This document shows positions 828 through 3,702 of a DNA stretch of 64,000 nucleotides, in pieces. The first letter of the stretch is position 1, and every line of letters begins with the position of its first letter. A program made the position numbers and the translations under genes. The notes under the pieces were generated by a model, which had not been told where the DNA came from, made no database searches, and saw only the letters and a list, made by a program, of their open reading frames with translations. Source of the DNA: Bacteroidota bacterium (GTDB taxonomy: Bacteria > Bacteroidota > Rhodothermia > Rhodothermales > UBA10348); NCBI GenBank assembly GCA_027622005.1, contig JAQBZH010000008.1, positions 1 to 64,000 of the forward strand, given 5' to 3'.

Positions 828-1973
828 ATGAAAATAGGTATCACGTGTTATCCAGTCTACGGTGGTAGCGGGGTTGTAGCTACGGAACTTGGAAAGGCAC
901 TAGCGGCCCGGGGACATTGCGTCCATTTTATTGCCTATTCCATCCCCTTTCGCCTAGGTCATATCCATGACAACATTCGTTTTCACGAAGTAAACGTCAA
1001 TAATTATCCGCTTTTTGAATACCCGCCGTACACCTTGAACTTAACCTCCAAGTTGGTCGATGTCGTCAAATACGAAGAGTTGGACATTTTACACATGCAT
1101 TATGCAATACCTCACGCCACAAGTGCGGTTTTAGCTCGACAAATTTTGGCGTTGGAAGGGATTCGAATTCCCATTGTGACTACGCTTCACGGTACCGACA
1201 TAACCATTGTAGGACAAGACCCGTCGTTTGCCCCCGTCGTCAACTATTCGATCAATCAGTCGGATGGCGTAACGGCCGTTTCTGAGTATTTAAAAAAGGA
1301 AACGCTAAGTAGTGGAGACATCACCGCAGAAATCGAAGTCATTCCGAATTTTATCGATACGAACCGTTTCCGCCCGCTAGAAAAGGGCCACTTCAAACAG
1401 GCATTGTGCCCCAACGGTGAGAAATTACTCGTTCACGTTTCAAACTTTCGACCTGTAAAGCGCGCTGTTGAAGTGGTAAACGTTTTTTACAACCTAAGAA
1501 GCCTGGGATATGCTATTAAGTTGCTATTGGTTGGAGACGGTCCAGACCGTGCCGCTGCGGAACACAAAGCCCGCGAATTGGGGGTTTATGAGGAAATTCG
1601 GTTTTTAGGAAAGCAAGAACCGGTCGAAGAGATTCTTTCAATTGCAGACATTTTTTTGATGCCTTCTAGCTCAGAAACGTTTGGATTAGCCGCGTTGGAA
1701 GCAATGTCGTGTGCCGTACCAGTGGTCGCCTCCGATATTGGAGGTGTTCCGGAGCTGGTCATAGACGGGGAAACCGGCTTTTTATGTCCGTTGGCAGATA
1801 TGGAGATGTTTACAGCTAGAACTAAACAACTCTTGGACGATCCCGAGTTGCTTAAAAAAATGGCGGCGGCATCACGAGAAAGAGCCGTCAAGGTATTCGA
1901 TACGAGTATTATTATCCCGCATTACGAGTCGTATTATGAAGCGGTAAGAGAATCTGTATCATCCGCGGTTTAG
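828..1973 (+). CDS. bshA: N-acetyl-alpha-D-glucosaminyl L-malate synthase BshA (GT4 glycosyltransferase)
   Basis: MKIGITCYPVYGGSGVVATELGKALAARGH...IPFRL; GT4 motif SSSETFGLAALEAMSC.VPVVASDIGGVPE. Confidence 0.93.
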   Translation: MKIGITCYPVYGGSGVVATELGKALAARGHCVHFIAYSIPFRLGHIHDNIRFHEVNVNNYPLFEYPPYTLNLTSKLVDVVKYEELDILHMHYAIPHATSAVLARQILALEGIRIPIVTTLHGTDITIVGQDPSFAPVVNYSINQSDGVTAVSEYLKKETLSSGDITAEIEVIPNFIDTNRFRPLEKGHFKQALCPNGEKLLVHVSNFRPVKRAVEVVNVFYNLRSLGYAIKLLLVGDGPDRAAAEHKARELGVYEEIRFLGKQEPVEEILSIADIFLMPSSSETFGLAALEAMSCAVPVVASDIGGVPELVIDGETGFLCPLADMEMFTARTKQLLDDPELLKKMAAASRERAVKVFDTSIIIPHYESYYEAVRESVSSAV

Positions 1974-1975
1974 GC

Positions 1976-3034
1976 GTGCAGCATTTAATCAGTCAGAAAA
2001 AAGCCAATTATCCTATTTCGGATTATTTGAGGTCCTATCTGACGCGATACGGTCGTATTTGGTCGGAATCGATTCGATATCGGGACTTGAACCGATTTAC
2101 CAATGCGATTCCCCTCTATGACGAAAAGGGGAAAGACACTCTCTGGTCTACTGTTCTGTATTCTGAGTCCGATCGGCAGGAAATACACCAGCAGCTTTTA
2201 ACAGCTTACACCATTCTCAAAGCAGATGGCGACACCTCGATTACAAAGTATTTATACATTGATCGGGTCGACCAATGCATCCACGGCAACACGCTCCCTT
2301 TCCGAATCCGAGTTGTAAACCGTATAAACGAAAATTTTGACTACTTCTACGTCAAAAAAGTAGATGCCAATCGGATCTACGGTCTGGAAATCGAGCACAT
2401 CCTTTCGCCCAACCGGATCAACTATTTCATTCATGCGCAAACTATAGTTGAGGAGCACATCATAGGCATTCCGGCGGACGCATTTTTACGCGAAGAAATC
2501 CCGGTTACTAATTTTGATCAGGTTCGCCTAGCCAAAGAGTTTGTCAAATTTAACGAACGCTGTTTCATCTCGTTGCTGGGTGACATGCATTCTGGAAACT
2601 TCGTGATCGAGTTGACCAGAGACTTTGAAAAATGGCATTTTCGAATGCATTCGATCGACTTTGATCAACAAAGCCATCATTGGAGAAAGGAAGTTTATCT
2701 GCCGGAATGTTTTGAACAAAACGCGCTTTTCGTGTCGATTGTCAACCGGAATCTAGCGCCGGAAAATGTCCTCCAATACCAAAAGGAGGAACGAAGCCTG
2801 GTAGCAAACCGCGTTCGCGTCTCTCACGGACGCTTTAATCAACTGATGGATGTGATGAAAGAAGATATTATATCCCCGGACGACTACGTCAAACGATTGG
2901 GCCAACAGCTCTCCGAACATTACAAAGAAGCAAAATTTGAATCGTGTGAGACTATGGGAGAAATCGTTTTCGCTTCCATCACTCGACTCCTCGACACCTC
3001 TCTCCCGGCTTCCTTCCCACGAGTAATGGTCTAG
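1976..3034 (+). CDS. Uncharacterised protein with atypical kinase-like (APH/PKL-like) motifs
   Basis: GTG start 2 nt after bshA stop; LLGDMHSGNFVI followed by SIDFD resembles the HGDxHxGN...(I)DFD catalytic loop and metal motif; upstream FYVKK and GLEIEHIL. Confidence 0.6.
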   Translation: MQHLISQKKANYPISDYLRSYLTRYGRIWSESIRYRDLNRFTNAIPLYDEKGKDTLWSTVLYSESDRQEIHQQLLTAYTILKADGDTSITKYLYIDRVDQCIHGNTLPFRIRVVNRINENFDYFYVKKVDANRIYGLEIEHILSPNRINYFIHAQTIVEEHIIGIPADAFLREEIPVTNFDQVRLAKEFVKFNERCFISLLGDMHSGNFVIELTRDFEKWHFRMHSIDFDQQSHHWRKEVYLPECFEQNALFVSIVNRNLAPENVLQYQKEERSLVANRVRVSHGRFNQLMDVMKEDIISPDDYVKRLGQQLSEHYKEAKFESCETMGEIVFASITRLLDTSLPASFPRVMV

Positions 3035-3702
3035 ACACCCAAAAAGTCATTTAAAAACGGATTGTTTTTGCGTTCCTCACCAATGGTTGTCATTGGTCCG
3101 TGACCAGAATAAACCCGAATACTATCGTCCAGCGTCATTAATTGCTGAAAAATTGACTGCATTAGTGTTGCTAGATTTCCCCGCCAAAGGTCGGTGCGCC
3201 CGATAGAATGCTGAAACAGCACATCACCCGAAAGAACAAAACCGTTTTTTTTGTCCAAAAAACTAACAGAACCAGGAGAATGACCGGGTGTGTGGAGGAC
3301 ATTCCATTCGACATCGCCGAACCGGATTACTTCTTCGGGCTCAATAAGCCTGACCGGAAGCGGAGGTTGTTTGATTTTGATGCCAAACATATTCGATTGA
3401 AATGTGGCCTGCTCCAGTAATACCTTGTCTTCACCGTGCACCTCAATTCCCTGGCCGTAATACTCGCTTAAGTCAGCACAACCAAAAATGTGGTCAATAT
3501 GCGCGTGCGTGAGTAATATCCGCGATACCTTGGTTCCGGTGGAATGCACATACTCGATCAACTCGTCGCGTTCCCAATCGGCGTGGCACGACGGGTCCAC
3601 GATTACGCACTCTCCAAGGCTTGAGACTACATAACAGTTGGTTGAAAATGGGTTATATGTGAATGACTTTATGACCACTGCGGTAAGCACCAAGAGAAAC
3701 AT
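3031..3702 (-). CDS. MBL-fold metallo-hydrolase (glyoxalase II-like)
   Basis: THAHIDHIFG, HTPGHSPGSVSF, SGDVLFQHSIGRTD, YSGHGPMTTIGEE motifs; true start probably the internal GTG near VVIKSFTYNPF. Confidence 0.88.
   Translation of the reverse strand: MFLLVLTAVVIKSFTYNPFSTNCYVVSSLGECVIVDPSCHADWERDELIEYVHSTGTKVSRILLTHAHIDHIFGCADLSEYYGQGIEVHGEDKVLLEQATFQSNMFGIKIKQPPLPVRLIEPEEVIRFGDVEWNVLHTPGHSPGSVSFLDKKNGFVLSGDVLFQHSIGRTDLWRGNLATLMQSIFQQLMTLDDSIRVYSGHGPMTTIGEERKNNPFLNDFLGV

Follow-up and report, generated by a model that had tools for sequence, protein, structure and literature searches.

The question raised by this locus is whether an open reading frame (ORF) of 352 amino acids, lying directly behind bshA, encodes a kinase, and if so, what its neighbor reveals about its function. 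The ORF is located near one end of the window, i.e., the whole 64,000-nucleotide stretch of contig JAQBZH010000008.1 that was analyzed. It reads through 352 codons from a GTG start, and the same codon is a Met start in same-genus homologs. The ORF upstream of it matches TIGR03999, the BshA equivalog, at 1.5e-162, which is over the model cut-off, and its TAG stop (1971-1973) ends exactly 2 nt before the ORF in question. The original prediction was of an undescribed atypical kinase coupled to bshA. Its coordinates agree with ours, both for the 2-nt gap and for the motifs GDMHSGN and IDFD, the latter (2654-2665, residues 227-230) lying 25 codons on.

Table 1 Features of the bshA-kinase locus, numbered along the window
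Feature	Position	Strand	Basis
bshA (N-acetyl-alpha-D-glucosaminyl L-malate synthase), upstream neighbor; role as functional partner only putative	828..1973	+	TIGR03999
Kinase-fold protein, unnamed family ('DFDQQ kinase')	1976..3034	+	ORF, homologs, AlphaFold2 model, alignment
N-T-L-P-F-R (residues 105-110), beta1-beta2 turn, P-loop position	2288..2305	+	Model and alignment
Lys127, end of beta3, putative ATP-binding lysine	2354..2356	+	Model and alignment, 107/107
Residues 130-140 (D130..R133..E138..E140), start of helix C	2363..2395	+	Model and alignment
EEHIIG (159-164), strand beta5 and hinge	2450..2467	+	Model and alignment
GDMHSGN (202-208), catalytic loop	2579..2599	+	Sequence and alignment
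IDFDQQ (227-232), metal-binding motif	2654..2671	+	Sequence and alignment
All-helical C-terminal region (helices between residues 247 and 340), replacing EPK-type activation segment	2714..2995	+	Model
Convergent MBL-fold hydrolase (Lactamase_B)	3031..3702	-	Stop overlaps kinase stop by 4 nt

AlphaFold2 was run on the window protein and on a Cytophagales homolog from Fulvivirga, 53% identical to it, from input alignments that contained 54 and 41 homologs, respectively. Both models were confident (pLDDT 89.4 and 89.8; pTM 0.87 each), and their elements follow the kinase order, i.e., beta1-beta2-beta3-alphaC-beta4-beta5, alphaE, catalytic loop, a beta pair and DFD. The elements are beta1 (93-101), beta2 (109-115), beta3 (121-128, with K127), helix C (131-143), beta4 and beta5 (150-160), helix E (179-199), the catalytic loop (202-208), the beta pair (209-226) and DFD (228-230), after which only helices follow; an EPK-type activation segment is absent from the AlphaFold2 models. 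At the level of fold, the two models are thus predicted to be bilobal, with the sheet and helix C in the N-lobe, and the catalytic loop and DFx in the C-lobe. When both were compared with the PDB by Foldseek, the matches listed were almost all kinases: there were 77 matches at E up to 0.001 for the window model, including Vps34, STK33, LegK4 and Rio2, and 12 for the Fulvivirga model, including mTOR, Bud32 and Vps34. The E-values were 1.4e-5 for Vps34 (prob 1.00, TMq 0.41), 3.4e-5 for mTOR, 3.8e-5 for Rio2 and 8.8e-5 for Bud32, and in BFVD, too, most of the named top matches were kinases. Since the TM-scores were below 0.5 for every Foldseek match listed (best 0.41) and the rmsd was large, the overall fold differs from those of all solved kinases; a TM of 0.41 or less allows a fold-level assignment only and places the protein in no named family. 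The two models, the Foldseek matches and the invariant K127, D203, N208 and D228-F229-D230 together bear out the kinase-like fold that had been foreseen.

Conservation was counted in an alignment of 107 homologs, some of them merely 33-45% identical to the query. The residue set of the superfamily (beta3 Lys, catalytic Asp, Asn and metal Asp, arranged as D-xxxx-N ... D-F-x) was found in all of them as K127, D203, N208 and D228 (107/107), and the same is true of G202 and M204 in the catalytic loop, the whole of D228-F229-D230-Q231-Q232, and D130 and R133 at helix C. The ATP-binding Lys proposed within FYVKK (124-128) is putatively K127, not K128, and the helix-C Glu proposed within GLEIEHIL (136-143) may be E138 (106/107) or E140 (104/107), which are indeed at helix C in the model. 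The glycine-rich loop is not canonical; N105, P108 and R110, at its position, are invariant (107/107), as are E159, H161 and G164. Beyond the active site, W57, Y78, Y125, N249, Q267 and others are also invariant. The expectation that homologs would keep GDxHxGN and IDFD held for Asp203, Asn208 and DFD, but not for His205 (D+2), which is His in 78 of the 107 and Arg in the other 29, none of the latter from Rhodothermales, or for Gly207, which was kept in just 29. Since these two positions vary but the phosphotransfer residues never do, the outcome is mixed letter by letter and clear for the residues of phosphotransfer. It is to be noted that a loose regular expression for the kinase loop ([GHANS]Dx[HR]xxN, 12-26 residues, hydrophobic-D-[FLM]-[DEG]) hit 112 of the 1569 ORFs in 121 loci, all belonging to the DFDQQ family, compared to 0.1 per shuffled set. 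Synonymous sites were saturated among the homologs, precluding dN/dS. Because Lys127, Asp203, Asn208 and DFDQQ (228-232) never vary, the protein is most likely catalytically active, as judged from the sequences.

Pfam-A and NCBIfam scans with the query and diverse members returned no model that covers the DFDQQ family, and PDB sequence searches, with the single protein as well as with a profile, found no significantly similar chain. Within these libraries, the protein is undescribed, as originally suggested. A search of viral contigs and plasmids found no relatives of the kinase. We are probably dealing with an unnamed kinase family, common among Bacteroidota-type bacteria and not represented by a model in any public library searched. 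A strongly conserved gene that spans Rhodothermales, Cytophagales and Flavobacteriales has thus been without a Pfam or NCBIfam model, and its complete kinase active site makes it a tractable target.

The named families were compared by hhalign, with alignments built here, against APH, HipA, long-kinase and ABC1 profiles and non-kinase controls. Across the catalytic loop and DFD, a profile signal approaching significance was obtained for ABC1/UbiB (PF03109) alone, and D-x-H-x-G-N is common to ABC1/UbiB and part of the DFDQQ family. Its hhalign E of 0.022, with the catalytic loop and DFD aligned, is marginal, as a non-kinase control reached 0.069, and its hmmscan signal was sub-threshold (0.011 for the best member; 2 of 54 members, the query itself not listed). 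Membership in ABC1/UbiB was rejected, since the score is below the Pfam gathering score; the match covers 79 columns only, and the DFDQQ family has DFD-QQ instead of DFG. APH (PF01636) and HipA (PF07804) were also rejected, as their hhalign E-values (0.36-0.69) fell in the range of the non-kinase controls and no Pfam match was listed for any member. Of the resemblance originally proposed to APH and ABC1, the ABC1 part is therefore marginal by profile, and the APH part is at noise level; APH and the DFDQQ family do share a helical C-terminal subdomain without an activation segment. The HipA catalytic loop is of the D-x-H-x-x-N style, as in the DFDQQ family, but no HipB-like partner gene was recognised near the kinase. 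A Ser/Thr-type assignment was rejected as well, the long-kinase profiles scoring like the non-kinase controls.

In shape, the best global overlap was with the PI3K-type kinases Vps34 and mTOR (TMq 0.32-0.41, rmsd 8-11). The PI3K motifs GDRHxxN and HIDFG resemble the G-D-x-H-x-x-N and I-D-F of the DFDQQ family, and the PI3K K-x-G-D-D-L-R-Q-D resembles its K-x-x-D-x-x-R after beta3. However, no Pfam PI3_PI4 kinase match was listed, no PDB PI3K sequence was matched, and sequence similarity to PI3K/PIKK (Vps34, mTOR, SMG1) was not detectable. Tested against the PI3_PI4 motifs (GDRHxxN, DFG), the family has GDM[HR]xxN, with Arg for His in 29/107, and DFDQQ; the protein also has an N-terminal 90 residues and C-terminal helices of its own.

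From the models and the alignment, we infer catalysis, the roles of single residues and the class of substrate. ATP would lie between the lobes, its phosphates held by Lys127 together with either E138 or E140 of helix C. Mg2+ would be coordinated by Asn208 and Asp228, perhaps with Asp230, and Asp203 would act as the catalytic base, so that the gamma-phosphate would pass to a hydroxyl of the substrate. The C-lobe would carry a helical C-terminal subdomain without an EPK-type activation segment, an architecture known in eukaryotic-like small-molecule kinases (PMC4702295), which makes a small molecule or lipid a likelier substrate than a protein. In those kinases, substrate specificity varies with the residue that follows DFG (PMC4702295); the position after DFD is occupied by an invariant Gln in the DFDQQ family (107 homologs). 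We therefore consider it likely that the product of the ORF is a phosphotransferase competent for catalysis, a member of the unnamed DFDQQ family within the protein-kinase-like superfamily; it would rather act on a small molecule or lipid and would not be dedicated to bacillithiol. An active small-molecule or lipid kinase is the most likely identity, although it is the architecture that suggests this substrate class, and no conserved genomic partner names the substrate.

The main rival reading is that the same fold serves a protein kinase or an AMPylating enzyme that regulates a conserved Bacteroidota protein. A macromolecular partner would fit the invariance of W57, Y78, Y125, N249, Q267 and others, all well away from the active site; the top Foldseek matches include Bud32 and Rio2, two atypical kinases that have proteins as clients; and the D+2 Arg of 29 homologs occupies the position of the catalytic-loop lysine that is tied to protein kinase activity (PMC4702295). 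However, the models have no EPK activation segment, D+2 is His in most homologs, and no partner gene is conserved, which leaves this reading rather unlikely.

A dedicated role in bacillithiol metabolism was suggested by the position of the gene. In Rhodothermales, bshA is directly upstream of the kinase on the same strand in 28 of the 32 informative kinase-holding genomes, with gaps of -1 to 134 nt; this count combines 26 of 29 informative loci with genomes G035 (56 nt) and G005, while in the exceptions (G010, G025, G027 and G038) the genes are apart. Displacement or absence of the convergent MBL gene leaves the pair intact in some loci (L018, L022, L024, L027, L052-L054). Outside Rhodothermales, the loci examined had no bshA beside the kinase, bar two opposite-strand glycosyltransferase matches of 24-25% identity, and the gene-neighborhood survey thus did not bear out a linkage conserved across the family. 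In a tree of 74 kinase proteins, the linkage does not occur outside the Rhodothermales clade and has changed at least twice, which we prefer to read as one gain at the base of the clade, followed by loss. Co-occurrence is also loose: bshC was found in 292 of the 297 genomes of the phylum sample and the kinase in 80, and ten Rhodothermales without the kinase (G006, G016, G031, G033, G036, G037, G070, G224, G228 and G244) hold bshA over the cut-off. The coupling to bshA thus stands as a positional feature of Rhodothermales only, and many genomes with bshA or bshC lack the kinase.

Since the linkage is order-specific and the bsh genes often lack the kinase, the position suggests co-transcription in Rhodothermales, which is probable from the gene arrangement, and says little about function. 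The alternative that the operon reflects a shared pathway, in which the kinase phosphorylates a bacillithiol precursor, bacillithiol itself or BshA, draws on the tight spacing and on the survival of the pair in loci with a displaced or absent MBL gene. It is improbable in view of the restriction of the linkage to a single clade and the loose co-occurrence, and the bacillithiol literature searched, including that on the N-methylating enzyme NmbA (PMC12719100), names no kinase step. Membership in the pathway was accordingly rejected on linkage as well as on co-occurrence, and the link to bacillithiol is weak. The best reading is that history placed the kinase beside bshA in an order-specific arrangement; a tempting but misleading clue has thus been removed. 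A broader proposal, possible but tentative, is that of a new kinase family that acts on a metabolite, lipid or protein and forms a branch of the superfamily not recognised before, nearest to the PI3K type in shape, with co-expression of the kinase and bacillithiol synthesis in Rhodothermales; if true, the Rhodothermales kinase could couple thiol metabolism to phosphorylation. The weakest rival, a pseudokinase or a scaffold that binds nucleotides but transfers no phosphate, could appeal to the non-canonical P-loop, the low TM to active kinases and the change of His205 to Arg in 29 homologs, but it is very improbable, as the full invariance of K127, D203, N208 and D228 would be unusual for pseudokinases.

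As to its distribution, the kinase was found in 33 of 41 relatives in a one-genome-per-species search, and by profile search in about a quarter of the phylum sample. In a scan of GTDB contigs, the best 80 of 385 relatives were from Bacteroidota, Rhodothermota or uncultured bacteria, bar a few MAGs titled as other taxa. The gene is usually single-copy across Rhodothermales, Cytophagales and Flavobacteriales, with about 53% full-length identity between members from the first two, and the maximum-likelihood tree follows the lineages. Inheritance thus appears mainly vertical in these orders and related Bacteroidota, as far as sequence comparison tells. One genome (G126) has two copies (L178 and L179). 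With a branch of 2.62 and 33% identity to the query, L179 has diverged strongly, but it still has GDMRSYN and DFDQQ. At L204 (G275:C1:3152145-3164410), the kinase looks decayed, as just two weakly matching pieces with internal stops are left and tblastn with the window protein found nothing there, which indicates that the gene can be lost.

The MBL-fold hydrolase gene is a conserved neighbor of the kinase in many Rhodothermales, and it still adjoins the kinase in L064, L065 and L068, where bshA was not found nearby. No partner gene conserved across lineages was found, and the neighborhoods outside Rhodothermales differ per lineage. In Cyclobacteriaceae (L062-L110), the kinase follows pcm, a 4HBT thioesterase gene, an unannotated protein of ~180 amino acids and a DUF3817 protein, the last gap being mostly <20 nt in this lineage-specific arrangement. 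In three Cytophagales (L067, L074 and L078), a glycosyltransferase gene (Glyco_trans_1_3) lies directly upstream, at 3-8 nt in L067 and L078. A freshwater group has a UbiA-family gene downstream of the kinase, which we take to be heme O synthase-like, and elsewhere ABC-transporter-like or aldolase-like genes lie near the kinase.
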